This document shows positions 1,741 through 33,180 of a DNA stretch of 64,000 nt, piece by piece. Positions within the stretch are counted from its first letter, which is position 1; each line of letters opens with the position of its first letter. Location of the stretch: NCBI RefSeq assembly GCF_002729955.1, contig NZ_PBYA01000032.1, forward strand, positions 62,001-126,000, read 5' to 3'. Source of the stretch: Salinisphaera sp. GTDB lineage: Bacteria > Pseudomonadota > Gammaproteobacteria > Nevskiales > Salinisphaeraceae. A program made the translations under genes and the position numbers. The notes beneath the pieces were generated by a model, which saw nothing but the letters and a program-made list of their open reading frames with translations, was not told the origin of the DNA and searched no databases.

Positions 1741-1894
1741 AGCACCTCCCGGTTGCGCGTCGAACTATATCGTCGAAACGCCGACAATGCATTGATTAAT
1801 GCACCGGTGCATTGCATTGCATATTAATTGCATTGTTGTAGCGCGCATTCCAGAGTGCGATTGCGATCACGCACTACCAAAAAGGAACCACGCT
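1741..1894. promoter_or_regulatory. Divergent control region with TGCATT palindromes
   Basis: The gap between the two divergent genes carries a perfect 16-base palindrome, AATGCACCGGTGCATT, at 1798-1813. An 8-base palindrome AATGCATT lies at 1786-1793, and further TGCATT hexamers lie at 1813-1818 and 1829-1834. Such spaced dyads usually bind a dimeric regulator. The HTH-like N-terminus of the minus-strand neighbour is a candidate binder (inference). Confidence 0.55.
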
Positions 1895-7600: not shown

Positions 7601-7986
7601 CCTACCTGGGTGGCGACTTATCCAGTTCGCACATGAATGTTCCGTACGAGGCATTCAAAGCCGTCTTGCATAGCTGGCATCAGGAGTTGATCAGGGTCCA
7701 CAGTGAGGATCAGTGGCCAGAATTTTATGGCAGCGAGCTCAAACAGTGGCAGCGGAGCCAACAGGAAGCCGTTATTGATTTCGATACCACCATGAGCTTT
7801 CGCAACGCGGTGGTCTATATGCCCATGTTCGCTGCGGCAGTGGCCAGCGGTGATGCCGAACTTGGCGATATCTTTAGTGAAGACAGAAAATCCGTTTTCT
7901 TCCTCCGCCAGGTTCGGGATTTCGACTCGAACTGGTTTACATCGGTTTACCAATACTGCCTGCTAAAGCGGCTCGCACGTTATTAA
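4666..7986 (+). CDS. druH: DruH-like protein of a Druantia type III defence system
   Basis: A 1106-residue protein with no catalytic motif I can recognise. The N-terminal 250 residues are helical, the middle is beta-rich with many short strands, and the C-terminus is helical again. The start at 4666 is chosen because GGGAGAAACC lies just upstream; the frame is open further back to 4510 but that part is low complexity and has no ribosome site. The call rests on context: Druantia type III is a two-gene system of a large uncharacterised DruH followed by the giant DUF1998 helicase DruE, and this gene directly precedes such a helicase with a 16-base gap in the same direction. Lengths and order fit that pair. 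It could instead be another helicase partner protein, which a profile search would settle. Confidence 0.72.
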   Translation: MVDASSLQYSLWLEKFMQRRFMRQPDQRPLYAYQCNRDEYFELLNLLKRQGANASYDENRAACAAFVLFCAEWYRRDYQQNFGWSWDQIWQRLGYELLPNARATVVSKGLEGYWKRPLHRYDSGTRNFLGSLFSEGGLPFQVLRQGDNRFQTLFERTLAQYDEARLLGYDTFKHVEQQLERINLPAVFSEAVSVQLIAEMTDQLVALVREYRLTDTNDPVGHLDTNNPRWREQFPLPLDDTTGNRLLNHLLNRATSETKKRKRDDSALWQHLWRPSQPEHLWFKVNLPKQISFRLETQPSTTRFELAIVEGEQSIKAIGPGYAALDDLVARIQLRNPKVIGPRQSSHLPLGLVAMAGGIVIASSQLTGSDVALGEVPLGFEREGDDWQLCGQASLDTASEELLLALPAGSVIEDLEVVEGQPEIIPMPEMLGLVAVRICGKAELKLNADESYRIRTGHGSSGDPGLALAGESVGWATQPALSFIGLPKPSWKNSDPRAQYDTRLLIGGHEPGSVGAEDMLGVRYVTVRNRQGDSLLRRKAGILPTGFRLQLRPGDTAGQGSVLVFSSRRVLLDIQTDTVTTRQIRHDDHTELRLTANSLPPVELRLTVTPSLLADPIEITLPFPGTGCLGFDKKGDKLQSVLSFDDLLGSRLLLFAKPQAATWFVLELTLSGSLARHVYCRWSYQVINKPVEISLYNLREQIIDLMSLSGDIDQTVELRISSPGVGDKIYRIRQHSAELVLDRNRGLLATSGLNKINDAFPEPALMLLHDPHQRARLLVSRTSQGTDVGTYELPATLDRDGPWLVVPSTSDSLSFRPIFLPGNWQAPATTRPSSSLQSAVLNFDPTASASSSPFIPVLNAMAENPLHSGWQFLRALYDQYGYLPLATFEVWKALVHHPQALAMSLFKFEMDPKFLGRIETEFPILWELFPIAHIQQALRAFSVFLAENGVRPEAIDEISNRYLEQLGATLPSYGGNVQAYLGGDLSSSHMNVPYEAFKAVLHSWHQELIRVHSEDQWPEFYGSELKQWQRSQQEAVIDFDTTMSFRNAVVYMPMFAAAVASGDAELGDIFSEDRKSVFFLRQVRDFDSNWFTSVYQYCLLKRLARY

Positions 7987-15385: not shown

Positions 15386-18154
15386 ATGGCCATTAAGAAA
15401 TCCCAGCTCTATTCCTCCCTCTGGGCCTCCTGCGATGAACTGCGCGGCGGCATGGACGCGTCGCAGTACAAGGACTATGTCCTGTTCATGCTGTTCATCA
15501 AGTACATCTCGGACAAGTACGCCGACTACGACGGCTTCGAGCCGCCGGTGGTCATCCCGAAGGGCGCCAGCTTCGCGGACATGGCCAAGCTCAAGGGGCA
15601 GAGCGACATCGGCGATAAGATAAACACCCAGATCATCCAGCCGCTGATCGACCACAACACGCGCCTAGCCCGTAGCGACTTCCCAGACTTCAACGACCCC
15701 AACAAACTTGGCGAAGGCAAGGCGATGATCGATCGCCTCACGAACCTGATCGGCATTTTCCAGAAGGCCGAGCTAAACTTCGCCAAGAACCGCGCCGACC
15801 ACGATGACATCCTGGGCGATGCCTACGAATACCTGATGCGCCACTTCGCCTCGGAGTCCGGCAAGAGCAAGGGCCAGTTCTACACTCCGTCCGAGGTCAG
15901 CCGCGTGATCGCGCAGGTCATAGGCATCGCACCCGAGAACACCACCGCCCGCACCGCCGCGTACGATCCAACATGCGGTTCGGGCTCGCTGCTACTGAAA
16001 GTCGCGGCCGAGTCGGGCAACCCGATCACGCTGGAAGGCCAGGAGAAAGACGTGACCACGGCCGGTCTGGCCCGCATGAACATGATCCTGCACGACTTCC
16101 CCACCGCCACCATCGTGCAGGGCAACACCTTGGCCAATCCCAAGTTCAAGGATGGCGAAAGCCTGCGCACCTACGACTATGTGGTGGCCAATCCGCCGTT
16201 CTCCGACAAGGGCTGGAACGCCGGCATAACACCCACCGACGACCCCCACCAGCGCTTTGCCTGGGGTGCGCCGCCAGCCAAGCAAGGCGACTATGCCTAC
16301 CTGCTGCACATCGTCCGCGCGCTGAAGAGCACCGGCAAGGGCGCGGTCATCCTGCCCCACGGCGTGTTGTTCCGCGGCCACGCGGAAGCGGCCATCCGCA
16401 AGCAGCTGGTGCGCTCGGGTTACCTCAAGGGCATCATCGGCCTGCCCGCCAACCTGTTCTACGGCACCGGCATCCCCGCCTGCATCCTGGTGCTGGACAA
16501 GGAGAACGCCCCCGCCCGCAAGGGCATCTTCATGATCGACGCCGCCCGGGGCTTCATCAAGGACGGCCCCAAGAACCGCCTGCGCGAGCAGGACATCCAC
16601 CGTATCGTCGACACCTTCAAGAAGCAGGCCGACACGCCGCGCTATGCCCGCATGGTGCCCTTCGACGAGATCGCGGACCCGAAGAACGATTTCAACCTCA
16701 ACCTGCCGCGCTACATCGACAGCAGCGAGCCCGAGGACCTCCACGACATCCACGCCCACCTCAACGGCGGCATCCCGCACCGGGACATCGACGGCGATGA
16801 CACCGCCATCCCGCCCGTGCCGGGCCTTGCCCGCTACTGGGCCGTGCTGCCGTCGCTACGCCGCAGCCTGTTCCGCGACAACGGCCACCCCGGCTACGCC
16901 GACCTCGCCGTCGAGCCCGACCGAATCAAGCCCACCATCGTGGAGCACGACGAGTTCGCCGCCTTCCGCGCCGAAGTCACCGCCCGCTTCGCCAAATGGC
17001 AGACCGACAACAGGCCGCGGTTGAAGGACTTCGACCAGGGCGGCAAGCCCAAGGTGCTGGTCACCGACATCGGCGAGGCCCTGCTCGACACCTTTCGCTC
17101 CATCCCGTTGCTGGACCCCTACGACATCTACCAGCATCTGATGGACTACTGGGCCGAAACCCTGCAGGACGACGCCTACGAGATCGCCGCCGACGGCTGG
17201 GTGGCCGAAACCCGCCGCGTGCTCGAAGAGGTCAAGAGTGGGAAGAAGAAGGGTGAGATGAAGGACAAGGGCTGGACCTGCGACCTCATCCCCAAGTCCT
17301 ACATCGTCATCCGATACTTCGCGGACGAGCAGGCCAAGCTGGACGACCTGCGCGCCCAACTGGATGCCGTGGCCGCCAGCCTGACCGAACTCGTCGAGGA
17401 ACACGGCGGTGAAGAGGGCGTGCTCAAGGATGTCTCATCGAAAGGCGATGCCGAGGACGCCTTCACCCAGACCCTAGTCGCCGTCTGGAACGAGGACGAC
17501 CCGGCCGCCTGCGGGCAGTACACCACCCTGATGGAACAGGCCGGCGAATACGCCGCCGAGCTGCGCAGCCTCACGGACCACAGCCACCTTTCCGCCCTCA
17601 AGAGTAGCAAAGGCAAGCTCACCCAGAAGTCTGTTAAGGACCGCCTGGCTGCCACCGGCGATACAGCCGAGCAGGCGACCCTGCAGCGCTATCTGGATGC
17701 GGATAGTCAGCAGAAACAGAACAAGAAAAAGGCCGACGGGTTGCTCGCGAAGGCCGAACAGCACTACCGCAGCCGTCTGGGCGAGACCCCACTACCGGAG
17801 GCCCTCACCGATCTCAACGCCACCGCCACCTATCTGGGCCTGCTCGACCGGCAAAGCAGACTCAAGAGCCAAGTCAAGGAGGCCGACGCCGTCCTCGACC
17901 AGCTCGCCTACGAGAAATACCCCCAGCTCGGCGAGGACGAGATCAAGACGCTGGTGGTGGACGACAAGTGGCTGGCGGCGCTGGATACGGCCGTGCAAGG
18001 CGAGTTGGAGCGCGTCTCCCAGACCCTCACCGGCCGCGTGCGGCAGCTGGCCGAGCGTTACGAGACGCCGTTGCCGCAGATCGTCAATCGTGTCGAAGAG
18101 CTATCGGCACGGGTAGATGAGCATCTGAAGAAGATGGGAGCGGTATGGGCGTGA
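15386..18154 (+). CDS. hsdM: Type I restriction-modification methyltransferase subunit, long form
   Basis: A 922-residue adenine-N6 methyltransferase subunit of the HsdMS complex. The N-terminal helical HsdM_N domain (YSSLWASCDELRGG) is followed by the SAM-binding motif DPTCGSGS (about residues 194-201) and the catalytic NPPF (about 269-272). The family is usually about 500 residues. Here roughly 400 more residues follow, largely charged and helical with coiled-coil character, probably contacting HsdS or HsdR. It is the first gene of an hsdM-hsdS-hsdR operon and overlaps hsdS by 10 bases. With HsdS it methylates host DNA and directs HsdR. Confidence 0.95.
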   Translation: MAIKKSQLYSSLWASCDELRGGMDASQYKDYVLFMLFIKYISDKYADYDGFEPPVVIPKGASFADMAKLKGQSDIGDKINTQIIQPLIDHNTRLARSDFPDFNDPNKLGEGKAMIDRLTNLIGIFQKAELNFAKNRADHDDILGDAYEYLMRHFASESGKSKGQFYTPSEVSRVIAQVIGIAPENTTARTAAYDPTCGSGSLLLKVAAESGNPITLEGQEKDVTTAGLARMNMILHDFPTATIVQGNTLANPKFKDGESLRTYDYVVANPPFSDKGWNAGITPTDDPHQRFAWGAPPAKQGDYAYLLHIVRALKSTGKGAVILPHGVLFRGHAEAAIRKQLVRSGYLKGIIGLPANLFYGTGIPACILVLDKENAPARKGIFMIDAARGFIKDGPKNRLREQDIHRIVDTFKKQADTPRYARMVPFDEIADPKNDFNLNLPRYIDSSEPEDLHDIHAHLNGGIPHRDIDGDDTAIPPVPGLARYWAVLPSLRRSLFRDNGHPGYADLAVEPDRIKPTIVEHDEFAAFRAEVTARFAKWQTDNRPRLKDFDQGGKPKVLVTDIGEALLDTFRSIPLLDPYDIYQHLMDYWAETLQDDAYEIAADGWVAETRRVLEEVKSGKKKGEMKDKGWTCDLIPKSYIVIRYFADEQAKLDDLRAQLDAVAASLTELVEEHGGEEGVLKDVSSKGDAEDAFTQTLVAVWNEDDPAACGQYTTLMEQAGEYAAELRSLTDHSHLSALKSSKGKLTQKSVKDRLAATGDTAEQATLQRYLDADSQQKQNKKKADGLLAKAEQHYRSRLGETPLPEALTDLNATATYLGLLDRQSRLKSQVKEADAVLDQLAYEKYPQLGEDEIKTLVVDDKWLAALDTAVQGELERVSQTLTGRVRQLAERYETPLPQIVNRVEELSARVDEHLKKMGAVWA

Positions 18155-20034
18155 GCCGAGACGTGATGGAAGTGCGGGATGCTTCGGCAGGCTATCCGCC
18201 ACTGGTAGATATGCCATTAGTGCTAGAGGGCCACGTTGAACTAGGCGCGGTTACTCAGTGGTTGTCGGGTGGGACACCCAGTCGTTCGGTAGAAGCCTAT
18301 TGGCAAGGAGAAATTCCTTGGATTAGCGCGTCAACTCTTCGGAAAGTGGAGGTCACGCAATCAGACCAGTGCGTTACACCCGAAGCTGTAGTAACTGGTA
18401 GCAAGATGGCGCCAATTGGTTCAACCCTTCTTTTGGTAAGAGGAAGCGCGTTACATAAAGAAATTCGAACTGGGATAGTCCGCACACCTGTTTGCTTCAA
18501 CCAAGATGTAAAGGCCTTAATTCCGAGTAAGCAGCTATATCCAGAGTACCTTACATATTCACTTCTAGGCCGTGAAGGCGAATTATTGAAGCTTGTGAGT
18601 TCTGCTGGGAATACAGCAGGGGTTTTGGACACCAAACTTGTTCAATCCTTTCGGGTATGGCTCCCTAGTTTCGACGAACAACGCGCCATCGCCACCGCCC
18701 TGAGCGACGTGGATGCCCTGCTGGAGGAACTGGACCGCCTGATCGCCAAGAAGCGCGACCTCAAGCAGGCCGCCATGCAGCAACTCCTCACCGGCCAGAC
18801 CCGCCTGCCGGGGTTTGAGGGGGAATGGGAACAGACCGTGCTTGATGAGCTGGTAACGTTCCTTTCTGGCGGGACTCCATCGAGGGGCAACGATACGTAC
18901 TGGGCCGGTGACATCCCTTGGATCAGCGCAAGCAGCCTTAGAACTTTTCACATTTGGCGTTCCGAAAGCAACGTCACGGAAGATGCTGTGGTGGCAGGTA
19001 GTAGGATGGCTCCAATAGGGGCAACGCTGTTACTCGTGAGGGGCAGCGCCCTCCACAACGAAATTCTTGCTGGTTTAGTTAAAAAACAAGTTTGTTTCAA
19101 TCAGGATGTTAAAGCGCTCGTACCGAAGAAACGGTTGCTCCCGAAGTTTCTTACGTTTCTGCTTCTCGGGAGAGCAAACGAATTATTGAACCTGGTGAGC
19201 TCCGCCGGGAATACCGCGGGTGTGCTGGACACGAAAATCCTCAAGGCATTTGACGTTCACCTCCCGAGCCTCCGAGAACAACAGGCTATCGCAGATGCAT
19301 TGACGGATTTGGACGACGAACTGGAAGCCCTGGAGCAACGCCGCACCAAGACCGCCGCGCTTAAACAGGCCACGATGCAGGAGCTGTTAACTGGGAAAAC
19401 GCGGCTGGTCGACCCCGCTGTGCAAGACCAGCCGGCGGAGAAGGCCCAGCCCAGTGGCCGCAAGGCAAACATCTATTTCATGCGAAGCGTGCTGGCTGCC
19501 GAAATCGTCGACCAGTTGCACGCGGAGCCGACCTTCGGGCACGTCAAGTTCGAGAAGATGCTGTTCCTCGTGGAGCATCTGTGTGACGTGGATACCGGCT
19601 CCACCTATCACCGCAAAGCCGCCGGCCCTTACGACAACCGGGCATTGCGCTCGATCGACAGCCAACTGCAGAAGCAGCAGTGGTTCGAAGCGCGCAAGGA
19701 AGACGGACGCTACCGCTACGTACCCCTGAACCGTCGGGGGAACCACAAGACGTACTTCGTTCGGTACTTCGCCGCGGTCAGTGACACGTTCGAGCAGGTG
19801 TTGGATAGTTTTCGGCACATGGACACCGAGCGATGCGAGATCGTGGCGACGCTTTTCGCCGCATGGCGCGACCTGCTACACGATCAGCCCACGGTGTCCG
19901 ATGAAATGATCGTGCATGAGGTGTTGAACAATTGGCACGAATCCAAGCAGCGGATTCCCGAGGATCGCTGGCTGAAGGCCCTCGCCTGGATGCGCGAGCG
20001 GGGATTCGCTCCGGAGGGTCGACGGTATGAATGA
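18145..20034 (+). CDS. hsdS: Type I restriction specificity subunit with duplicated TRDs and extra C-terminal domain
   Basis: A 629-residue DNA-recognition subunit. Two target recognition domains are each followed by a helical spacer: TRD1 about residues 30-190 and TRD2 about 232-415. The two TRDs are strikingly alike (SGGTPSR, IPWISAS, MAPIG.TLLLVRGSALH, VCFNQDVKAL, SSAGNTAGVLDTK in both), so both half-sites of the recognition sequence should be the same or nearly so. The TRD-coding DNA is visibly more AT-rich than the spacer-coding DNA, as expected for exchanged modules. After residue 440 an additional domain of about 180 residues begins (KFEKMLFLVEHL ... AAGPYDNRAL). It recalls Panacea/DUF4065-like helical domains, but this is tentative. 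The gene overlaps hsdM. Confidence 0.93.
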   Translation: MGVSRDVMEVRDASAGYPPLVDMPLVLEGHVELGAVTQWLSGGTPSRSVEAYWQGEIPWISASTLRKVEVTQSDQCVTPEAVVTGSKMAPIGSTLLLVRGSALHKEIRTGIVRTPVCFNQDVKALIPSKQLYPEYLTYSLLGREGELLKLVSSAGNTAGVLDTKLVQSFRVWLPSFDEQRAIATALSDVDALLEELDRLIAKKRDLKQAAMQQLLTGQTRLPGFEGEWEQTVLDELVTFLSGGTPSRGNDTYWAGDIPWISASSLRTFHIWRSESNVTEDAVVAGSRMAPIGATLLLVRGSALHNEILAGLVKKQVCFNQDVKALVPKKRLLPKFLTFLLLGRANELLNLVSSAGNTAGVLDTKILKAFDVHLPSLREQQAIADALTDLDDELEALEQRRTKTAALKQATMQELLTGKTRLVDPAVQDQPAEKAQPSGRKANIYFMRSVLAAEIVDQLHAEPTFGHVKFEKMLFLVEHLCDVDTGSTYHRKAAGPYDNRALRSIDSQLQKQQWFEARKEDGRYRYVPLNRRGNHKTYFVRYFAAVSDTFEQVLDSFRHMDTERCEIVATLFAAWRDLLHDQPTVSDEMIVHEVLNNWHESKQRIPEDRWLKALAWMRERGFAPEGRRYE

Positions 20035-20176
20035 CCGCGGTCCACACCTATTGCGATGAGTCGTGTCGTCTTGAGCATGCCCGCCCGTCAGCGATGGCGC
20101 TGGCCGCAGTGCCCCGCTCTGCGTCCACGTGGCCGGCAAAAGCTCGAGGGCTGGCATTGAAGGGGGAGATCGAACC

Positions 20177-23100
20177 ATGACGTTATCCGCTGCTCGCCCC
20201 GAGCGGGCGACCCAGGATCGAGTTGTGGAGCTGTTCACTCGACCGACAGATTCTGGTGGGTTGGACTACCGCTACCTGGGCGACCACAGGCGGCGCGAGA
20301 ACAACCGCGCCATCGAACCGGAGATTCTACGCGCCAGCCTGTGGGACCGTGGCTATTCGGAGGCACATATATCGGCCGCTCTGCAGAAGCTGGAGGCCGC
20401 CGCCGATGTCACCGGCGTAACGCTGTATCAGGCCAATCTGCGTACCTACAACCTGCTGCGTTACCCGGTGAAGGTGCTGCTGACGCCCGGCGAACCGCAT
20501 CGAGATGTGCACCTGATCGACTGGGAGCAGCCGGAGAACAATGACTTCGCGCTGGCCGAGGAAGTCACGCTTCGGGGTGCCCATGAACGGCGGCCCGATC
20601 TGGTGCTGTACCTCAATGGCATCGCGATCGCGGTCATCGAGTTGAAGCGCAGCTCGGTAGAGGTAGCGGACGGCGTGCGCCAGCTCATCACCAATCAAGA
20701 AGCGATCTTCAACCAGTCGTTCTTCAGCCCGGTGCAGGTCCTGTTCGCGGGCAGTGACTCCCAGGGGCTGCGCTATGGCACCACGGGAACGCCCGAACAG
20801 TTCTTCGTGCAGTGGAAGGACGAGGAAGGCTGTGCCGACCTGGCGCCCGGAATGCTGCTGGACAAGCCGCTGGCCCAGATGTGCGAAAAAGCGCGACTGC
20901 TGGATCTAATCCGCAACTGCATCATCTTCGATGCAGGGCAGAAAAAGGTGCCGCGGCCGCATCAGTACTTCGGCATCAAGGCCGCCCAGGCGCGTATCGA
21001 GCAACGCGAAGGCGGCGTGATTTGGCATACCCAGGGCAGCGGCAAGAGCATCCTGATGGTGCTACTGGCCAAGTGGCTGTTGGAGCATGATCCCGAAGCG
21101 CGCATCCTGGTGATCACGGACCGTGACGAGCTGGACAAGCAGATTGTCGGGGTTATGCGTAACGCCGGCGTTGTGGGCGAGGATGCCCCCTCGCCGCGAA
21201 TCACTTCGCGGGCGCAGTTCGTGGAGACGCTGCGCGCCACGACACCCCGCCTGCTCTGCGCCCTGGTGCACAAGTTTGACCCGGGCGATCTGAATCACGA
21301 GCCGCCGCCGGTGAGTGGGCGCGTGTATGTGTTTGTGGACGAGTGCCACCGTACTCAGGGCGGTGCCATGAACCGCCAGATGAAGCGCTGGCTGGCGGAT
21401 GCCATCTTCATCGGATTCACCGGCACGCCGCTGCTGCGCAAGGACAAGCAGACCACGCGGGAGGTCTTTGGCACCAACATCCACACCTACAAGTTCCCCG
21501 AGGCCGTGGCCGACGAGGTGGTACTCGACCTGAAGTACGAGGCCAGGGACGTGCCGCAGCGCTTGACCTCGCCGCAGGCCGTGGACGCCTGGTTCGAGCA
21601 GAAGACCAAGAACCTGAATAACTACCAGAAAGCCGTGCTGCGCAACCGCTGGGCCACTATGGAACAGCTGATGAGCGCCGCGGAGCGCAAGCAGCGCATC
21701 ATCGCCGACATCATCGAGGACTTCAGCCTCAAGCCGCGGCTTAACAATAACCGCGGCACGGCCCTCCTGGTGGCGAACTCGATCTACGACGCCTGCCATT
21801 ATTTCCGGCTGCTCCAGAACACATCGTTCGGCCCGTACTGCGGCCTAATTACCTCCTACGAGCCGAACGCCAATGCCATTAGCCGCCAGCCGGCCGATAG
21901 CGACGAGCGCTACAAGTTCGACACGTATACCCGGTACGTGCTCGCGGACGGCCAGACCACCGGCCAGTACGAGGACGAGATGAAGCGCCGCTTCATCGAG
22001 GAACCCACCAACTGCAAGCTGCTGATCGTGGTCAGCAAGTTGCTCACGGGCTTTGACGCGCCGTCGTGCACTTATATCTACCTCGACCACGAGCTGCGCG
22101 ATCACAACCTATTCCAGGCGATTTGCCGCACCAACCGTTTGGACGGCGACGATAAGGACTACGGCCATATCGTCGACTTCAAAAAGATGTTCGGCGACGT
22201 ACAGCAGGCCATCGCGGTCTACAGCTCCGACGAGCTGGATCAGGAGGATGGCGGAACCACCGGCAACAATATCGACCTGAAGAACTGGCTAGAGGAGGGG
22301 CGAAAGAAGCTGGACGCGGCGCGCGAGGGACTGAAGTATCTATGCGAGCCGGTGGCCTCACCCCAAGGCTTCGAGCAATACCTGCGCTACTTCTGCGGCA
22401 ACCTGAATGATCCGGAAGCGCTAAACCGCACGGAGCCTCTACGCATTGCTTTCTATAAGGCCACGGCAGCCTTCGTGCGCGCCTTTGCGGGCATTGCCCA
22501 GAACCTGGATGACGCGGGGTACACCGCTGGCCAGATCACCGAATTGAACAACGAGGTGGCGTTCTTCAGCGACGTGCGCGCGGCTATCAAGCGGCATGCT
22601 GGCGAGGAGCTGGACATCAAGCCCTATGAAGCGGACATGCGCCATCTCATCAACACGTATATCCAGGCCGATCCCGCCGACGACCTTGGCACGGTGGACG
22701 ACTATTCGTTAATCGAGCTCGTGGTAGAAACCGGCATCCACGACGCCATTGCACGCAAGCTCAACCAGAAGGGCAAGCTCAATCGGAATGCGGTGGCCGA
22801 GGGCATCGTCAACAACGTGCGCAAGACCATCATCCGCGACCAGCTTACCGACCCGCGCTTCTACGAGCAGATGTCCAAACTGCTGGAGGACCTAATCGCA
22901 GAGTGGCGCAGCGAAACGACGTCATATCAGGCCTTTCTCGAGCGGGCCGAGGCGCTTATCAAGCAAATGCATAGCGGCCAGAACGATAAGGATGTGCCTC
23001 CAGCCCTGGCGGACCGGCGGGAGGCGCTGGTGGTCTACAATAACCTGCCGAACATTCTCGCGGCTGGCGGCCAAGCTCAGGAAATCCGCGAATCAAACCC

Positions 23101-23296
23101 GGGCTATGCAGACCCGCTGATCAGTATCGCGCTCGAAATCGACCATGCCATGCGCGAGCAAGCGCCGGCTGGCTGGAACGGGGACCAAGCCAAGGAAAGC
23201 CAGGTTCTGAATGCGCTGTTCCCGATCATGAAGCGAAACCGAACCACGACCCGCGCCCTATTCGATCTGATCAAAAACCAAGCCGGCTACCAGTGA
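20177..23296 (+). CDS. hsdR: Type I restriction endonuclease, motor and nuclease subunit
   Basis: A 1039-residue HsdR. The N-terminal PD-(D/E)XK nuclease is visible as [20 protein letters not shown] with the ELK triad around residues 154-157. The translocase has Walker A QGSGKS (about 286-291), DECHRTQ (about 387) and FTGTPLLRK (about 410). It cleaves unmodified DNA after ATP-driven translocation together with HsdM and HsdS. GGGGGAG about 10 bases upstream supports the ATG at 20177 over longer open frame upstream. A 142-base gap separates it from hsdS, and its stop overlaps the GTG of the next gene. All key residues I can place are present, so the system looks functional. Confidence 0.95.
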
Positions 23297-24006
23297 CCGA
23301 GACCATCGAACTCGGCGAACTTTCGATCCAAGTCACGCGCAAGGCCGTCCGGAACGTGCACTTGTCTGTGCATCCGCCGGACGGTCGCGTAACTCTGACG
23401 GCGCCATCGAACACCCGCCTGGACGTCGCCCGTGCCTACGCCATCTCGAAGCTCGAATGGATCAGAGCACAGCAGTCGCAACTACGCGAGCAGCCACGCG
23501 AGACACCACGTCAGTTCGTACGGCGCGAAAGTCATTACGTTTGGGGCCGCCGTTACCTACTGGATGTGGAGGAACGCGACGCCGCCCCGGGTGTCCACCT
23601 AGACCATCGGCGCATCACGATCAACGTAAGGCCTGGAAGCTCAACCGCCAAGCGGGCCGAGGTAATGCACGCATGGCACAAGCGACTGCTGCACAAGGCC
23701 GTACCGCCGCTGATAGAACAGTGGCAGCCCAAGCTAGGCGTAACGGTTTCCCGGTACTATCTGCAGCGAATGAAGACTAAATGGGGCAGCTGCAACGAGC
23801 GCGCCAGCAACATCCGCCTGAACACCGAGCTTGTAAAAAAACCGAAGGACCTGCTCGAGTACGTCATCGTGCACGAGATGGCACACCTGCTCGAGCCCAC
23901 GCACAACAGCCGATTCATCGAGCTACTTGATATCCACTATCCGTGTTGGCGTGAAGCACGATCTGAACTAAACGAATTACCGTTGACAGCGGAAGCTTGG
24001 CCGTAG
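23293..24006 (+). CDS. YgjP-type metallopeptidase-like protein (DUF45, M48 family)
   Basis: A 237-residue protein starting at a GTG that overlaps the hsdR stop (GTGA), so the two are translationally coupled. The zinc motif [15 protein letters not shown] (HExxH) lies near residues 194-208, and a preceding WGSC motif ([17 protein letters not shown]) is typical of the YgjP/DUF45 family. This family is often found directly downstream of hsdR in type I restriction operons. Its role there is not established; a processing or quality-control protease for the restriction complex is one possibility (inference). Confidence 0.9.
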
Positions 24007-24199: not shown

Positions 24200-25225
24200 C
24201 TAGCCTAAGAATCCGATCGTACGCCGCGATTCTCCGATAATAAAATCGGCTTCACATAAGTCGGGAATAAGGCGTTTGCGGGCTTGTGTCTGCAAAGCCG
24301 CCGCGCCCATGCCGTCTATCAAACGCTTACGTATGGCACGTGGGGGCATATCCGCTAAGCGGCCCATTACGTGGTCCGGTAGCCTTGATCGAAAGGCCGC
24401 CCTCCAACCCGGATTCTGAGCCAGGATCCCTGCATAAACCGATTGTGCAATCGCCTTCAAGTCTTCCGCACTTGGGCCGTCGACGGTAGCCACATCAAAT
24501 CGCGAAAGAATCGGCTTGGGTATGGCGCCGAGATTATTGGATGTGGCAATCCAGATGACATGGGATGCGTCCATAGGCAAACCGACGTGCTCGTCGACGA
24601 ATTCGCTGGCCGTTCTCGTTTCTAGCAATTGATAGAGCGGCCCATATCCATCGAATCGCGCGTCAGTCGAAAGTTTGTCGACCTCGTCGAGCAGGACGAT
24701 CGGGTTCGCGCAGCGGCCACCTTGCAGGATCTCGTAAACACGCCCTGGCCGGCTGCCTTGCCAGCTTGGGCTGTTGCCGCCGAGCACGAAGCTTGCGGTA
24801 ACTGAAGAGCAGTTGATCACAGCGAACTCGGTGTCGAGTACTTCGGCGAGCATCCGAGCGAAGAAGGTTTTGCCGATGCCCGGCGGGCCATCCAGTAGCA
24901 ACGGCGGCCACTGAAGGACCGGGGGCAGAGCCAATCGGCAAAGCGCAAGCTGGCGTCGCAGACGATCGATGACCGGTGCGAAATTCGGTTGGCTTTCCAC
25001 CATTCCATCTAGCTGGTCGAGCATCGAGGACTGCACCAGCGCGAGTGTACGGTCCGAACCACTCATACGGAGCCGGTTGAGTGTTTCGCGGCGGGCCGAA
25101 CGACTATCCTCCGCTTCGAACGCCTCATGCGCCGCGTCCGTATCGAACACCTTGGCCAAGAGAGCGCGGCGACGGGCTGGCGGCTGTTCTCCTACACCTT
25201 TTTCATACTGCCAGAAATCGCTCAT
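24200..25225 (-). CDS. Lon-like AAA+ ATPase
   Basis: A 341-residue AAA+ protein with Walker A GPPGIGKT (residues 113-120), Walker B VLLDEVDK (about 177-184) and sensor 1 IWIATSNN (about 223). The order resembles the ATPase domain of Lon, without a protease domain. The N-terminal 100 residues are helical and may bind a partner. Its ATG overlaps the stop of the upstream OB-HD gene (ATGA), so the two are coupled and probably act together. It lies at the 3' end of a three- or four-gene unit beginning at the integrase. An accessory ATPase for the HD nuclease, or a defence ATPase, is inferred only from this pairing. Confidence 0.85.
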   Translation of the reverse strand: MSDFWQYEKGVGEQPPARRRALLAKVFDTDAAHEAFEAEDSRSARRETLNRLRMSGSDRTLALVQSSMLDQLDGMVESQPNFAPVIDRLRRQLALCRLALPPVLQWPPLLLDGPPGIGKTFFARMLAEVLDTEFAVINCSSVTASFVLGGNSPSWQGSRPGRVYEILQGGRCANPIVLLDEVDKLSTDARFDGYGPLYQLLETRTASEFVDEHVGLPMDASHVIWIATSNNLGAIPKPILSRFDVATVDGPSAEDLKAIAQSVYAGILAQNPGWRAAFRSRLPDHVMGRLADMPPRAIRKRLIDGMGAAALQTQARKRLIPDLCEADFIIGESRRTIGFLG

Positions 25226-26199
25226 ATGATTGCTCCCACCCAGTCTTGCGGAGAAACCACCGATTTGGGCGTGAGTCGGGCGAGCAGCTGGCCACGGTCT
25301 GTACTCGTATAGCGTTGCCAGCCTTCGGCACCTTGAAACGCGCGTTCACGCAGATCCTGTCCTGCGCTGAGCCGATCCATGGCCCTCACCAGATCTGTCA
25401 TCAAATAAGGCGCGTGCGTATAACTGCGCGCCGGCGCAAGAATCGAACGAAGGGCTGCCGCGCCTTCGCCCCAGTGCGCATCAAGACACGCCAGCGCCGG
25501 AGCGAGCACCTCCAGGTTGAGCGCTTCTGGGTCTGTCCCTTGCAGCGGGCTCATACCCACGGTGCTACGCGCGTAGAGCCGTATCTTGCCGATGTCGTGA
25601 AACAACGCCCCCACCACGGCCAGTTCACATTCACGCGCGGGCGTGCTATGAAGCGCGGCGGCGGCTGCCGTCGTTTCTGCCACCTGCACACTATGGATTA
25701 GCAAGCCGCCATCATAAGCGTGGTGGTGGGCCCGACTGCCCGGCACGCACATGAAAGGCTCCGAGACCCGCTCGTCCGCGAACACGCTGCCGACGAACGC
25801 GCGCAGCGCCGAGTCGTTCAAGCCATCGAGCAGTCCTTGCAGGCGCGCGAACGCCGGACGGCCATTCTCGGGCACCCAGGCCAGCGGGATCAGCGACCAT
25901 TCCGGCTGAGGCGTACCGTCGAGCCGCGTCAGGTCGCTGGCAAGCAGTTGTTTGCTGTCAGACGTGTCGACGATCACGCCGTCGAAACGGACCACGGGCA
26001 CGCCAGCCCCAACCTCCGAGCGTACGACGTGATCTGGCTCGTTTATCAAACAGTCAGCCTCTCCCGTGGCATCTGCGATGCGTATCACCGTCTGCTGCAC
26101 ACTTGCGTCAGTAGCTAGGGCTGGTCCTACAGCGAGCACGCGGTAACAACCTTGAACTGGACGACCGACGCCCGCGGGCCAATTTTTGATGCGCGTCAT
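25222..26199 (-). CDS. YhaM/TraI-like OB-fold plus HD-domain phosphohydrolase
   Basis: A 325-residue protein. The N-terminal 110 residues fit an OB-fold (TVIRIADATGEADCLI). An HD domain follows, with HHHAYDGGLLIHS (158-170) and FHDIGK (200-205). This layout is that of YhaM, a 3'-5' exoribonuclease also active on single-stranded DNA, and of the HD domain found in TraI-type proteins of integrative elements. The start at 26199 has GGAGGAGTG directly upstream, inside the end of the integrase gene; the integrase stop and this ATG are separated by only 2 bases. The gene is therefore expressed with the integrase and the AAA+ gene. Substrate unknown; single-stranded nucleic acid is likely (inference). 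Confidence 0.85.
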   Translation of the reverse strand: MTRIKNWPAGVGRPVQGCYRVLAVGPALATDASVQQTVIRIADATGEADCLINEPDHVVRSEVGAGVPVVRFDGVIVDTSDSKQLLASDLTRLDGTPQPEWSLIPLAWVPENGRPAFARLQGLLDGLNDSALRAFVGSVFADERVSEPFMCVPGSRAHHHAYDGGLLIHSVQVAETTAAAAALHSTPARECELAVVGALFHDIGKIRLYARSTVGMSPLQGTDPEALNLEVLAPALACLDAHWGEGAAALRSILAPARSYTHAPYLMTDLVRAMDRLSAGQDLRERAFQGAEGWQRYTSTDRGQLLARLTPKSVVSPQDWVGAII

Positions 26200-26201
26200 G
26201 A

Positions 26202-27395
26202 TCACTCCTCCGAATCCAGGCCACCGTTCATCGCGCCCGTCACGAACCGGTCGAATGCACTGCCATCTCGACGCGTGAGATTCGGCACGTAGCGCGAATA
26301 GACACGGAATAGCATCTCCGTGGTGGTGTGCCCCATCTGCCGCGCGATCCATTCGGGGTTCTCCCCTGCGGCGAGCCAGAGTGTGGCTGCGGTGTGGCGA
26401 CAGTGATACGGACGCCTCGGTGCGAGCTTCAGATATCTCAATAGCGGATACCAGACACGCTGCGTCACATTGGTCGTATCCAGCGGCGTGCCATCTCGCG
26501 TGACAAAGACATACTCGCCGTCGCCGGTGACCTTGTGCTGGGCCTGTAGCGCGTCGTATACGATGGACGACATGGCGATCTCTCGCTGGGAGCCATCGGT
26601 CTTCGTGTAATCAATCACGCCCTTATCAATCGTTTCTCTCACGAGTATCTGGCGTGCCTCCCAATCGACGCGTGACCATTTCAGGCCATGCAGCTCGCCT
26701 GTACGCATCCCCGTAAAGAACCGAAGCGTGTAGTACTGCTTGTAGTCGCTACGGACCGTGTCGAGGATCAGACGGACCTCCTCGAGTGAGAACGGCTGGA
26801 TATCTTTCCGGCGCAGCCGCAGTCGCTTGATATTCCGAACGGGATTCTGGAACTCGAAGCGGTCAGCTGCCTCCGTCATGATCATGTTCAGGATGCCCAT
26901 CAGGTTGTTGATGGTCTTTGGCGACAGCGTTTCGTTCCCCGAGCGGCCCGCGCACTGGGCGACTTCGGCTCTGAAGGCCAGCACCTCGGCTTTAGTGATT
27001 TCGCCGATCGGCCGGTCACCAAACGCGGGAAGCAGATGGCGATTCAGTACAGCCCGGTTGCCTAGAATTGTATTGCGGCGCCAGCGTATTTCGTTCTCGC
27101 GCCACCAAGTATCGACAAAGTCTCGAAACGTAGGTGTCGCAGCTGTAGCCAAAGGGCTTGAGGACGACACCTCGTCGCCATCAAAACGCACTGCCCGCCT
27201 GCTATCAGGGAAATATTTCCGATACTCAAAGGCACCGAGAGTAATTTCCGCATCCATCTTTTCGGCAACCGACTTCATTCGCTTCCTATTCGCTTTCGTA
27301 TCGTCGAGCGCGGTGTACTCACGACACCGAATGCCTCGATACTTGAAGTCGAAAAAGAGCTTGCCGCTGTCTTCTCGGCATCGGATGTTAACCAT
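26202..27395 (-). CDS. int: Phage/ICE-type tyrosine integrase
   Basis: A 397-residue site-specific recombinase. The N-terminal arm-type domain (VNIRCREDSGKLFFDFKYRG) is followed by a SAM-like core-binding domain (about 90-190) and the catalytic domain with Arg231 (FFTGMRTGEL), YHCRHT (330-335, Arg333), MGH (354-356) and probable nucleophile Tyr366. All catalytic positions are filled in the way usual for this branch. It is 0.9 kb from the 3' end of tRNA-Arg, the expected attachment site. The start at 27395 overlaps the excisionase-like gene by 8 bases. Downstream it is coupled to the OB-HD and AAA+ genes. Confidence 0.95.
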   Translation of the reverse strand: MVNIRCREDSGKLFFDFKYRGIRCREYTALDDTKANRKRMKSVAEKMDAEITLGAFEYRKYFPDSRRAVRFDGDEVSSSSPLATAATPTFRDFVDTWWRENEIRWRRNTILGNRAVLNRHLLPAFGDRPIGEITKAEVLAFRAEVAQCAGRSGNETLSPKTINNLMGILNMIMTEAADRFEFQNPVRNIKRLRLRRKDIQPFSLEEVRLILDTVRSDYKQYYTLRFFTGMRTGELHGLKWSRVDWEARQILVRETIDKGVIDYTKTDGSQREIAMSSIVYDALQAQHKVTGDGEYVFVTRDGTPLDTTNVTQRVWYPLLRYLKLAPRRPYHCRHTAATLWLAAGENPEWIARQMGHTTTEMLFRVYSRYVPNLTRRDGSAFDRFVTGAMNGGLDSEE

Positions 27396-27705
27396 TGCAC
27401 ACACCCCCGCCAGCCATCGGAATACCGGCGAACGCCATCGTCTTTGGCGGAGCGCTTTTAGCCGATGCGTCAGAAGCTGAAGAGGACGTAGGAGCACTTA
27501 TCGGCGCTGAGTCAGCTCGAACTGCGGGCTGCCTCATGTCCCGCTCTATCGTTTCCCAGATATACAAGATTTTTCGACCGCCGAACGGTCGAAAGTAATG
27601 CTTGCCCTCGATTAATACCGAATCCTTCAGCCGGTCGCGGATTGTGCGAACGTCGTAATGAATTCGCTCGGCCAAGGCTTCCGTCGTTAAGTACGTGTAG
27701 TTCAT
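27388..27705 (-). CDS. Excisionase-like HTH protein
   Basis: A 105-residue protein that begins with a MerR/Xis-like winged helix (LTTEALAERIHYDVRTIRDR ... GKHYFRPFGGRKILYIW) followed by an Ala/Ser/Pro-rich tail. Such proteins direct excision or regulate the integrase. GGAG lies 7 bases before the ATG at 27705, so this start is preferred over the ATG 12 bases upstream. It overlaps the integrase start by 8 bases and is transcribed from the palindrome-bearing region shared with the divergent repressor gene. Confidence 0.75.
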   Translation of the reverse strand: MNYTYLTTEALAERIHYDVRTIRDRLKDSVLIEGKHYFRPFGGRKILYIWETIERDMRQPAVRADSAPISAPTSSSASDASAKSAPPKTMAFAGIPMAGGGVCNG

Positions 27706-27739
27706 AATATGCTCCATCGGTTGATTCTAGACATCTTGC

Positions 27740-28256: not shown

Positions 28257-28292
28257 AAAAAAAAGACCAGTAGCAATCAACTACTGGTCTTT
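28257..28292 (-). terminator. Intrinsic terminator after tRNA-Arg
   Basis: A perfect 12-base stem, AAAGACCAGTAG with CTACTGGTCTTT, and a 7-base loop lie at 28262-28292. On the minus strand the stem is followed by a run of T (28264 down to 28257). It ends the csrA/tRNA-Ser/tRNA-Arg transcript and insulates it from the island. Confidence 0.85.
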
Positions 28293-28297
28293 CAGTA

Positions 28298-28374
28298 TGG
28301 CGGGCCCGGGAAGATTCGAACTCCCGACCTTGCGGTTCGTAGCCGCACGCTCTATCCAACTGAGCTACGGGCCC
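28298..28374 (-). tRNA. tRNA-Arg(ACG)
   Basis: A complete cloverleaf with acceptor GGGCCCG/CGGGCCC, discriminator G and encoded CCA at 28298-28300. The anticodon loop CTACGAA gives anticodon ACG. Its 3' end faces the integrase, so it is the likely attachment site of the island. No second copy of its 3' end is visible to the left in this window. Confidence 0.97.
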
Positions 28375-28388
28375 TTGACTGGTTGTCA

Positions 28389-28481
28389 TGGCGGAGAGGG
28401 AGGGATTCGAACCCTCGAAGGGGCTATAAACCCCTTACTCCCTTAGCAGGGGAGCGCCTTCAGCCACTCGGCCACCTCTCC
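28389..28481 (-). tRNA. tRNA-Ser(GCT)
   Basis: A 93-base tRNA with the long variable arm of class II tRNAs, acceptor GGAGAGG/CCTCTCC, and encoded CCA at 28389-28391. Anticodon loop CTGCTAA gives GCT. It lies 14 bases upstream of tRNA-Arg in the same direction and is probably co-transcribed with it; this pair next to csrA is common in gammaproteobacteria. Confidence 0.97.
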
Positions 28482-28648
28482 AAAAATCGTTGTCCTGCGA
28501 AACGCAATCGCCGTTCTTAAGCCGTTTGCGTCGACTGTTTCGACAAACCGACTCACCGGAGTAGCGGCCTTGCGAAAACGAACTCTCATTCGTTCAAGGC
28601 CGCGAATAATACCCGGCTAAGCCTTGCGGGTAAACCCCTTATGCCACT

Positions 28649-28828
28649 TCATTTGCGATCGATCGTCGATTCGTCGTCCTCGAACGACTCGTCAACGCTT
28701 TCCACCCGCACGTCGCGCGGCGCTTCGACGGCGATACGCACGCGTTCGCCATCGGTATCCAGCACCCTCACCTCGATCTCGTCGCCGATCTGCAGGCGCT
28801 CACCGGCGCGGCGTTCGAAGATCAGCAC
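28649..28828 (-). CDS. csrA: Carbon storage regulator CsrA, GTG start
   Basis: A 59-residue protein from a GTG codon at 28828: MLIFERRAGERLQIGDEIEV, then VRVLDTDGERVRIAVEAP, as in CsrA/RsmA. The beta-strand arrangement and RIAVEAPRDV.V end match the RNA-binding dimer that represses or stabilises mRNAs at GGA motifs. The tail is acidic (ESFEDDEST). It lies 9 bases downstream of lysC, in the usual alaS-lysC-csrA order. It controls translation of many mRNAs globally. Confidence 0.93.
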   Translation of the reverse strand: MLIFERRAGERLQIGDEIEVRVLDTDGERVRIAVEAPRDVRVESVDESFEDDESTIDRK

Positions 28829-28837
28829 GGGTCCTAT

Positions 28838-30112
28838 CTAGCCCTGTTCCGCGCTCGGCGTGAGCTCGCTTTCGACCTTCTTCGGCTCTTCGTCGAGCTC
28901 GAATTCGTCGTGCAGCGCGCGCACGGCCAGTTCCAGGTACTTGGTCTCGATCACGATGGAGATCTTGATCTCGGTGGTCGAGATCATGCGCAGGTTGATG
29001 TTCTCGCTGGCCAGGGCCTTGAACATGCGCGCAGCGACGTTTGCGTGCGAGCGCATGCCCACACCCACCAGCGACACCTTGGCAATGCCGGACTGGCCCG
29101 AGACTTCGCGCGCGCCCAGATCCTTGGCCGCTTTTTCGAGCAGTTCCTTGGCCGCATCGAAATCGCGGGTATGCACGGTGAAGGTGAAGTCGGTGAGCGT
29201 GTAGTCGCTGGACGAGTCGCCCGAGACGTTCTGCAGGATCATGTCGACTTCGATATTGGCCTCGCCGATCGGGCCGAGCAGCGCATAGGCGATGCCGGGC
29301 TTGTCGGGCACGCCGAGCACGGTGAGCTGGGCTTCGTCCTGGGTAAAGGCGATGCCGGAGATGATCGGTTCTTCCACTTGTTTCTCCAATGTAATGAGCG
29401 TGCCGGGGCCGTCGTCGAAGGTAGACAGCACACGCAGCGGGACGCCGTATTTACCGGCGAACTCGACCGCGCGAATCTGGAGCACCTTGGAACCCAGACT
29501 GGCCATTTCCAGCATTTCTTCGAACGTGATCTGCTCTAGGCGGCGCGCGCCGGAGACCACGCGCGGATCGGTGGTGTAGACCCCGTCCACGTCGGTATAG
29601 ATCTGGCATTCGTCGGCGCCAAGCGCCGCGGCGAGCGCGACCGCGGTGGTATCCGAGCCGCCGCGACCGAGGGTCGAGATTTCGTTGGCCTCGGTAATCC
29701 CCTGGAAACCGGCGACCACTGCCACATCGCCTTCGTCGAGCGCGCTGCGCAGATTGGCCGGTTCGATCTTCTGGATCCGCGCCTTGGAATGCGAGTCGTC
29801 CGAGACGATCGGCACCTGCCAGCCGGTGAACGAGCGCGCCGATACGCCGGTATGGCGCAGGGCCATCGACAGCAGCGAGATGGTGACCTGCTCACCGGTG
29901 GAGAGCAGCACATCCATTTCGCGCGGGACCGGACGGCCCTCCAGTTCCTCGGCCAATCCCTGCAGGCGATCGGTTTCGCCGCCCATCGCCGACACCACGA
30001 CCACAACCTGGTCGCCGTTGTCGCGATAGCCTTTGATCTTCTGGGCGATGCGCTTGATCTTGTCGACGGTGCCGACGGACGAGCCGCCGTATTTCTGGAC
30101 AATCAGTGCCAT
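28838..30112 (-). CDS. lysC: Aspartokinase
   Basis: A 424-residue single-function aspartate kinase, the first enzyme for lysine, methionine and threonine. The N-terminal KYGGSSVG nucleotide motif is at residues 7-14, and a GRGGSDTTA motif near 150 belongs to the kinase fold. Two ACT regulatory domains fill the C-terminal third (LGVPDKPGIAYALL and VGVGMRSHANVAARMF), as in lysine/threonine-inhibited enzymes. It lies between alaS and csrA, 63 bases after alaS. Confidence 0.97.
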   Translation of the reverse strand: MALIVQKYGGSSVGTVDKIKRIAQKIKGYRDNGDQVVVVVSAMGGETDRLQGLAEELEGRPVPREMDVLLSTGEQVTISLLSMALRHTGVSARSFTGWQVPIVSDDSHSKARIQKIEPANLRSALDEGDVAVVAGFQGITEANEISTLGRGGSDTTAVALAAALGADECQIYTDVDGVYTTDPRVVSGARRLEQITFEEMLEMASLGSKVLQIRAVEFAGKYGVPLRVLSTFDDGPGTLITLEKQVEEPIISGIAFTQDEAQLTVLGVPDKPGIAYALLGPIGEANIEVDMILQNVSGDSSSDYTLTDFTFTVHTRDFDAAKELLEKAAKDLGAREVSGQSGIAKVSLVGVGMRSHANVAARMFKALASENINLRMISTTEIKISIVIETKYLELAVRALHDEFELDEEPKKVESELTPSAEQG

Positions 30113-30175
30113 GGAATATCGCTTTCCTTGTCGGGCGCTGGGTCGCGCCGGTCATGAGTTCTGATAGGGCTAAGC

Positions 30176-32791
30176 TTACCCGAGTCGCTGCTCAATCCAA
30201 CCGTAAACGCTTTCCAGCGCTTCATCGAGCTTGCTCGCATCGCTGCCGCCTGCCTGGGCCATATCGGGCCGGCCGCCCCCCTTGCCGCCGACCTGTTCGG
30301 CCACGAAGTTGACCAGATCGCCGGCCGGCAGCGCCTTGCTCTGGCTCTTGGCCACGCCGGCAATCAGCGCCACCTTGCCGTCGCTGGCCGCACCCAGCAC
30401 GATCACGCCGTCGTCGAGCTTGTTCTTGAGCGCGTCGACGGTATCGCGCAGTACCTTGCGGTCGGCGCCATCCATGCGCCGGACCACCACCTGGGCGCCG
30501 CCGATATCGCGGGCGGCGTCGGCCAGATCGTCGCCCTGGCTGGCGGCAAGCTTCTGGTTGGCCTGGTCGAGCTGTTTTTCCAGCCCCGCCACGCGTTCGA
30601 GCATGCGATCGAGCTTGTCCTCGAGTTCCGACGGCGCGGCCTTGAGCCGGGAGGCCACACGGATTTCGCGGGCCATCGTGTCCTGAACCCACTTGAGCGC
30701 GTGTGCGCCGGTCACCGCCTCCAGGCGCCGCACCCCGGCGGCCACGCCCCGCTCTTCGGTGATCTTGACCAGGCCGATCGCGCCGCTGGCCGGCACGTGG
30801 GTCCCGCCACACAGCTCCACCGAATAATCGCCAAAGCGTACGACACGGACTTCGTCGCCGTATTTTTCGCCGAAGAAGGCCAACGCGCCTTCCGCGATCG
30901 CCTCGTCGTAGCTGCGGGTATAGAACTCGCCCTGAATATTCTCGCGCACGCGGGCATTCACCTGCGCTTCGATATCGGCCAGGGTTTCCGGGGTCACCGA
31001 CTCGAAATGGGCGAAGTCGAAACGCAGCCGTTCGGGGGCCACCATCGAACCCTTCTGGCGTACGTGCGTACCCAGGGTTTCGCGCAGTGCCGCATGCAAC
31101 AGATGCGTGGCGGTATGGTTGAGTTCGATGGCCTGACGGCGACCGGTATCGACCTCGGTCTCAACCGCCATGCCGGCAGCGAATTCACCGGATTCGACCT
31201 GCCCGAAGTGCAGGAACACACCGTTTTGTTTCTGGGTATCGGTCACCACAAAGCGTGCGCCGTCGGCATCGATCACGCCGTGATCGCCCAGCTGCCCGCC
31301 GGATTCACCGTAGAACGGGGTGCGATCGAGTACGACCACGCCCTCGTCGCCTGCGCCCAGTCGATCCACCGGCTGTTCGTTCTGCACGAGGCTGACCACC
31401 TGTGCACGGCCGCGGGTTTCGGTATAGCCGATGAACTCGGTGGGCGACTGCACGTCGATCTTCGCGTGGTAGTCGGCACCGAACTGGCTGGCTGCCCGTG
31501 CGCGCTCGCGCTGGGCCGACATTTCGGCATCGAAGCCGCGCGTGTCCAGGGTCAGACCGCGCTCGCGGGCGACGTCGTTGGTGAGATCGACCGGGAAACC
31601 GTAGGTGTCGTAGAGCTTGAACACCGTCTCGCCGGGAATCTCGGTACCACTCATGGCACCGATCGCATCCTCGAGAATGCGCAGTCCCTGGGCGAGCGTG
31701 AGCGCGAAGCGCTGTTCTTCCTGCTCGACCACGCGCTCGATCTGGGCCTTCGATTCGGCCAGTTCGGGGAAGGCCTCGCCCATGAGTTCGACCAGCGGGC
31801 CGACCAGCTTGTAGAAGAACGTATCCGTCGCACCCAGCTTGTGGCCGTGGCGAATCGCGCGCCGCATGATCCGGCGCAGCACGTAGCCGCGCCCTTCGTT
31901 GGAAGGCATCACCCCGTCGGTGATGAGAAAGGCGGTGGCACGGATATGGTCGGCCACCACCTTGAGCGAGGACTGCTGGGCCGGCGCGGCCTTGGTCGCA
32001 TCCACACCGACCGCGTCCGACGCGGCCTTGATCAGCGTCTGGAAGACGTCGATGCCGTAGTTGTCGTGGGTGCCCTGCATGACCGCGGCGATGCGCTCCA
32101 GGCCCATGCCGGTATCGATCGACGGGCTGGGCAGGTCGACCATGGTGCCGTCGGGCTGGCGGTCGTACTGCATGAAGACCAGATTCCAGATCTCAACGAA
32201 GCGGTCGCCGTCCTCTTCCGGCGTGCCGGGGGGGCCGCCGGCGATATGCTCGCCGTGGTCGTAGAAGATTTCCGAGCAGGGGCCGCAGGGGCCGGTATCG
32301 CCCATCTGCCAGAAGTTGTCCTTGGCGCCGATGCGCGAGAACGTGGACTCGGACACGCCGATTTCGTCGAGCCAGATTCGCGCAGCTTCTTCGTCTTCCT
32401 CGTAGACCGTGACCCAGAGTTTTTCCTTGGGCAGGCCGAGTTCCCCGGTAAGAAATTCCCACGCGAAATGAATGGCTTCGCGCTTGAAGTAGTCCCCGAA
32501 GCTGAAGTTGCCCAGCATTTCGAAGAAGGTGTGATGACGCGCGGTATAGCCGACGTTTTCCAGATCGTTGTGCTTGCCGCCGGCGCGCACACAGCGCTGC
32601 GACGATACCGCACGACTGTAGTCGCGCTTGTCGCGACCCAGGAATACGTCCTTGAACGGCACCATGCCGGCATTGGTAAACAGCAGCGTCGGATCGGAGG
32701 CCGGAACGAGGCTGCTGGAGGCGACGAATCGATGCTTGTGCCGTTCGAAATATTCGACGAAACGCGCACGCAACGCGTTGGTGGACATCAT
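30176..32791 (-). CDS. alaS: Alanyl-tRNA synthetase
   Basis: An 871-residue class II synthetase of usual length. The catalytic core begins [15 protein letters not shown]. The editing domain carries [13 protein letters not shown] (about 555-567) and CGGTH (about 658-662), both zinc-site motifs. The C-terminal coiled coil and DHHA1-like domain ([15 protein letters not shown]) are intact. The frame starts with two ATG codons, so the true start may be one codon later. It leads the alaS-lysC-csrA unit. Confidence 0.98.
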
Positions 32792-32880
32792 GGGCAGGCG
32801 CCTCTTACGAAATCAGCGGGAAGCAAATAGCGCGCTAGTTTAACAGAGCCTTTCGGCCTGCCCTACCACTGAACGCCCTG

Positions 32881-33180
32881 TCAGCCCGCCTGCTGGCGCA
32901 GGCTGTCGACCTTGTCCTGATTGCTTTGATCGCGGTCGCTGCGACTGCCCAGCTTGATCGTGGTGAACACCCGCGGCGCGCCCAGATCGTGAATTGCCTC
33001 ATGGCACTGCTTGAACGCAGCGAACACGTCGTCCCAGTCGCCTTCCACATTGGTGCCGTAGGCATGCGCGACCGGATTCAGGCCGGCGTTGTCGAGAATC
33101 GGCTGACAGGCAGCGATGAAACGCGACACGGACACGCCCGCGCCCATGGGAATGACACAGATTTCGGCGGTGATGTTCAT
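32881..33180 (-). CDS. MTH1187/YkoF-type thiamine-binding protein (DUF77)
   Basis: A 99-residue ferredoxin-like fold protein beginning MNITAEICVIPMGAGVSVSR, with NPVAHAYGTNVEGDWD and TIKLGSRSD typical of the thiamine-binding (DUF77) family. The ATG at 33180 has GAGGAGTG just upstream, so a longer frame is not used. It may buffer thiamine or related compounds. It stands alone between alaS and the repeat-bearing gap. Confidence 0.88.
   Translation of the reverse strand: MNITAEICVIPMGAGVSVSRFIAACQPILDNAGLNPVAHAYGTNVEGDWDDVFAAFKQCHEAIHDLGAPRVFTTIKLGSRSDRDQSNQDKVDSLRQQAG

Follow-up and report, generated by a model that had tools for sequence, protein, structure and literature searches.

The gene that directly follows the tyrosine integrase in the window (the whole stretch of 64,000 nucleotides that was analysed) encodes a protein of 325 aa, OB-HD, in which a predicted OB fold precedes an HD phosphohydrolase domain. 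From sequence comparisons, this gene appears to behave as part of the integration module in a widespread class of islands. Its linkage to the integrase is a new point: a literature search, with preprints and most subscription papers outside its range, found no publication on integrase-linked OB-HD, TraI_2 or YhaM genes. With moderate confidence, OB-HD may be regarded as a single-strand nuclease-like enzyme that is expressed with Int and Xis in the integration module of islands that have no recognised relaxase.

On the minus strand, a small HTH-like gene is followed by the tyrosine integrase, OB-HD and an AAA+ ATPase; an XRE gene is transcribed divergently. The small HTH-like protein (27388–27717, minus strand; YLTTEALAERIHYDVRTIRDRLKDS...) occupies the excisionase position, has no Pfam match, and has homologues at 28 of 38 OB-HD family loci; an Xis-like function is presumed for it. 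Homologues of the XRE-type regulator (PF13443; 27835–28056, plus strand) are present at 33 of these loci. The integrase (26202–27395, minus strand) is composed of an arm-binding domain (PF12167, DUF3596; E = 3e-22) and a catalytic domain (PF00589; E = 8e-17). It shares the arm-binding domain with the IntBPP-1 subgroup of tyrosine integrases (PMC8138268), and the available part of the published account of that subgroup does not mention an HD gene. Since the integrase stop is at 26202, the OB-HD gene (25222–26199, minus strand; ATG at 26199, preceded by GGAGGAGTGATC, and stop at 25222) begins after an interval of 2 bases. The AAA+ gene (24200–25225, minus strand; ATG at 25225, stop at 24200) in turn overlaps the OB-HD stop by 4 bases (ATGA). 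Both spacings, and the operon-like arrangement with the integrase, are as reported in a preliminary description of this DNA.

Within the order, 19 of 85 genomes contain relatives of OB-HD; further ones come from assemblies of Geobacter, Shewanella, Pseudoalteromonas and deltaproteobacteria. The 38 loci considered here are the non-YhaM group of these relatives; they are drawn from one order and limited scans and are partly non-independent. At 30 of them, spanning several families and classes, an integrase of the type in the window lies directly upstream of OB-HD, in the same orientation and no more than about 450 bp away. The two genes often overlap and mostly have an Xis-like gene and a divergent XRE gene in front, and in half of the cases (15 of 30) a tRNA gene lies no further than about 1.3 kb from the integrase. 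The two genes again adjoin in an Aeromonas caviae record, here with a 4-bp overlap; an integrase-like ORF of 1120 aa lies downstream at this A. caviae locus (L189, 9048–12410, minus strand). In a reverse search, which overlaps with the search that began from the HD protein, 22 related integrases were counted in the order (E ≤ 1e-60; a truncated contig and a further fragment of an element already counted are excluded), and OB-HD comes after 18 of them. Since integrases of this kind also occur without OB-HD (in the remaining 4 cases, on an Acinetobacter plasmid of 12 kb and on a viral contig), OB-HD is not essential for the recombinase. Conversely, 6 of the 8 OB-HD loci that have no integrase present a divergent XRE gene directly before OB-HD. 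Relatives that are full-length and have an intact active site are present across Pseudomonadota and in deltaproteobacterial MAGs, and thus the gene is not a chance occurrence. Single-protein scans of viral contigs returned only HD proteins of about 200–240 aa, which are too short to contain both OB and HD domains.

Several loci depart from this arrangement. Integrase-less relatives (L104, L110, L111, L113 and L188) are found near UmuD/UmuC-like genes and, in the case of L188 on the Aeromonas plasmid pMC64A, umuDC and ssb are annotated nearby. At L099 (8290–10176), a tandem pair of OB-HD family genes is located behind a single divergent XRE gene.

The 341-aa AAA+ protein has the Walker A (GPPGIGKT) and Walker B (LLDEVDK) motifs and conserved sensor and Arg-finger residues. 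It matches PF00004 (E = 9e-19) and, as the best NCBIfam model, Lon (TIGR00763, E = 3.5e-30), in agreement with the Lon-like assignment made earlier. The Lon match is confined to the ATPase part (residues 109–262; profile positions 356–509 of 795), and the best PDB matches in a Foldseek search were all Lon (E = 4e-17). While it shares the AAA+ module of Lon, the protein ends after the ATPase domains without the C-terminal Ser-Lys protease domain, as a small free-standing ATPase on mobile elements. Whether the OB-HD/AAA+ pair accompanies integrases elsewhere had been put forward as a check; OB-HD does so and AAA+ does not: the latter follows OB-HD at only 2 of the 38 loci, the window and a congener (G083) whose AAA+ protein is 51% identical and retains the ATGA overlap. 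Relatives of AAA+ in the order adjoin genes with the sequence motifs of PPP-like or other metallophosphoesterases in 4 of 5 cases, and those on plasmids adjoin varied cargo. Given this low co-occurrence and the other neighbours of its relatives, a conserved two-gene system of OB-HD and AAA+ was ruled out. Judged by its distribution, AAA+ is a lineage-specific third gene, a local add-on whose product may load, remodel or switch the OB-HD enzyme. The conserved pair is therefore the integrase and OB-HD, and the term cargo, previously applied to OB-HD, should be given up.

Free-standing Lon-type AAA+ genes beside PPP-like (VGDIHG) and/or metallophosphoesterase genes were also seen at L121, L122, L123, L125 and L116 (9486–10621); such sets are possibly a cargo unit of two or three genes. 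The contig also has similar phosphoesterase genes immediately to the left of the window, with no adjacent AAA+ gene.

At the sequence level, OB-HD matches the HD domain (PF01966, E = 1.3e-4), TraI_2 (E = 9e-7) and a YhaM model (E = 6.5e-4). The names that such genes are given automatically derive from TraI_2, HD or HDOD matches, and one plasmid relative carries the name HDOD. The structure model is confident (pLDDT = 90, pTM = 0.87). It presents an N-terminal OB fold (approximately aa. 12–95) that sequence searches did not show, with RPA-type OB domains matching at a Z-score of about 12. The HD domain (approximately aa. 110–290) superposes on that of YhaM with a Z-score of 18.7 over 198 residues. 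The YhaM-like fold proposed earlier is thus supported by the model. The predicted metal ligands of the window protein, H169, H201, D202 and D275 (H...HD...D), are retained by 36 of the 37 family members. The sole exception, L093 (contig C14, 10769–11713), is a free-standing, degenerate second copy in the genome of the window with no neighbouring integrase. With RD in place of the HD motif and Ala in place of the first ligand His, L093 is probably an inactive remnant. A further His at position 224 is kept in 32 of 37 members. It is absent from the window protein, and both of the OB-HD proteins that have an AAA+ partner lack it, a possible sign of altered chemistry in this pair.

The YhaM/Cbf1 3'-5' exonucleases (NF010007; PDB: 9h3f, 9o7t) resemble OB-HD in length, in the order of the OB and HD domains and in their HH..H..HD..D ligands. 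A profile–profile alignment with YhaM-type proteins extends over the full length (282 columns, E = 3e-39). However, OB-HD reaches 18.9 bits where the family cut-off is 460. The GH and HHG motifs, invariant in the YhaM-type set (H221, H254 and H255 in alignment A2), are missing from it and, unlike YhaM, it adjoins integrases. No YhaM orthologue was identified in the host genome at the threshold used. In a tree of HD domains, the YhaM-type rows and the MOBH relaxase rows each form a group (100/100) that excludes the window protein; the integrase-linked proteins fall in neither reference family, and their deeper order is unresolved with several rows on long branches. While the comparison to YhaM in the preliminary description is sound with respect to fold, YhaM is not the only related family: the HD domain of MOBH relaxases defines a second, and OB-HD belongs to neither.

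YhaM degrades single-stranded RNA and DNA from 3' to 5' in a Mn(II)-dependent manner (PMC11347170). Given that the OB and HD domains of the modelled protein are arranged as in YhaM, the OB-HD product is, by analogy, most likely a 3'-5' nuclease or phosphodiesterase. The OB fold would be expected to bind single-stranded nucleic acid and present its 3' end to the HD centre, where the metal is probably Mn. The metal centre of the window protein may differ since it has neither His 224 nor the HHG motif of YhaM. In the proposed module, a divergent XRE regulator would control an Xis-like gene, the arm-domain integrase and then OB-HD. As OB-HD would be co-transcribed with an integrase gene that it often overlaps, the enzyme would be produced when Int and Xis are, during either excision or re-establishment. 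Its substrate would be single-stranded DNA or RNA of the element itself or of a rival element, and its role may lie in DNA processing, exclusion or mobilisation.

The island to which the module belongs is inserted at a tRNA-Arg(ACG) gene (28298–28374). The attachment site is 48 bp from the 3' part of the tRNA gene (28297–28344, minus strand) and has an identical copy on contig C9 of the same genome (16409–16456); no second copy was found inside the window. In a congener (G076), one side of tRNA-Arg matches 28289–33136 of the window at 88% and the other side matches C9 downstream of its att copy at 81%, so the site is uninterrupted in that genome. From the att copies and this comparison, the island runs leftwards from the tRNA gene, off the contig of the window (C32), and ends on C9. 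Contigs end inside the island, whose full length extends beyond the window. Adjoining the att copy on C9, a protein of 1762 aa (L160, 10952–16240) has a tyrosine-recombinase domain toward its C-terminal part (PF00589, E = 3e-5).

The island cargo in the window (1799–24006, plus strand) consists of a beta-CASP metallo-beta-lactamase (1799–3604), DruH (4510–7986) and DruE (8003–14326) of Druantia III, a type I restriction-modification set HsdM/S/R (15386–23296) and a YgjP-like peptidase (23293–24006), all on the plus strand. The best NCBIfam matches of the beta-CASP protein, aCPSF1 and Cas14, are both far under cut-off; its gene lies just before the Druantia III genes and may be a partner of that system. 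To the left of the window, an operon that combines DUF3584 with a weak match to MksE (L116, 2217–9273) resembles an SMC-like (Wadjet/Mks-type) system that was not picked up by PADLOC. With respect to OB-HD itself, no full-length defence model in PADLOC-DB 2023 fits (best E = 0.009, Cas3b), and the best match of AAA+ (TRIP13, E = 9.6e-12) is partial and reflects generic AAA similarity. With no PADLOC match, the two genes were rejected as a known defence system.

The island may be compared with relaxase-less defence islands that are moved by helpers, such as I55 of P. fluorescens (PMC12595487). Both have a tyrosine integrase, direct-repeat att sites, defence cargo and no recognised transfer genes. 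The I55-type islands target tmRNA with IntY/AlpA, unlike the tRNA-Arg site of the window island, and the searched text of that account mentions neither a phosphohydrolase nor a nuclease gene.

OB-HD and the integrase have diverged together but at different rates. Over 28 loci, the mean pairwise identity is 54% for the integrase and 34% for OB-HD, and in the closest congener pair the values are 91% and 42%, respectively. The two identity matrices correlate (Mantel r = 0.49, p = 5e-4) which, with the lower identity of OB-HD, implies linked inheritance with a faster OB-HD. In the closest congener pair, DNA identity is about 80% up to the junction of the two genes and 62% after it; a recombination breakpoint was considered, and differing selective constraint would account for the drop equally well. 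The fixed catalytic residues in 36 of 37 members argue against decay. From these sequence data, the pace of divergence is more like that of an exclusion or conflict gene than of a recombination cofactor. An unlikely alternative is that OB-HD destroys incoming or competing DNA or transcripts, keeping relatives or phages from the occupied tRNA site, with the variable AAA+ adding specificity. Some integrase-less OB-HD loci have restriction genes as neighbours, again with a divergent XRE gene, and there is a precedent in Pif, a Nudix hydrolase of pSAM2 that confers conjugal immunity; in actinobacterial elements, nud and xre are clustered with genes for HD phosphohydrolases (PMC3218068). However, no defence model fits OB-HD, and its near-constant place behind the integrase together with the correlated divergence favour a part in the element's own cycle of excision and transfer.

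It is improbable that OB-HD is a minimal MOBH-like nickase that acts at a transfer origin of the island, which a conjugative helper would then mobilise. As such, it would be a new HD-type nickase or strand-processing enzyme for relaxase-less tRNA islands, bridging the YhaM and MOBH families. OB-HD shares with MOBH relaxases (PF07514 TraI_2, NF041494) a location on mobile elements and the PAS..HHH..GGLL.H and HD..K motifs, and aligns with the MOBH profile over the HD region only (135 columns, E = 3e-16). The TraI_2 match exceeds the gathering score (28.6 versus 23.9 bits) over just 43 residues. The host genome has no match to MOBP, MOBF or MOBH relaxase models or to a T4SS coupling protein, and the MOBH genes that 19 of the 85 genomes in the order carry could supply help. 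Against this, the NCBIfam MobH match (E = 8e-7) reaches 28.2 bits where the cut-off is 200, and the protein forms a separate clade. It is also 325 aa in length with an OB domain before the HD region, whereas MOBH relaxases have no such domain and are about 600 aa, and no oriT is known for the island.

Control at the RNA level is distinctly improbable: a YhaM-type RNase would trim xis-int or cargo mRNA and so tune excision. YhaM removes a few nucleotides from the 3' ends of mRNA (PMC11347170), and the OB-HD gene lies inside the very operon to be controlled, but rapid divergence is unexpected for an enzyme that trims a conserved mRNA. That OB-HD is a neutral hitch-hiker, kept solely through its linkage to the integrase, is hardly credible despite broken or degenerate copies (L093, L102 and L167), since highly diverged copies could keep their metal ligands, as 36 of 37 do, only under purifying selection.

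How large defence-bearing islands move without transfer genes is an open question (PMC11389934). Conserved and apparently intact behind the integrase of such islands, the proposed single-strand nuclease-like OB-HD enzyme is a candidate for the missing step, be it strand processing, the exclusion of rivals or mobilisation. The fast divergence of OB-HD suggests conflict or exclusion, and its constant position suggests a part in the excision and transfer of the element. The OB-HD gene may also serve as a simple marker for locating islands of this kind, and the family connects the fold of a housekeeping exonuclease to that of a relaxase family.
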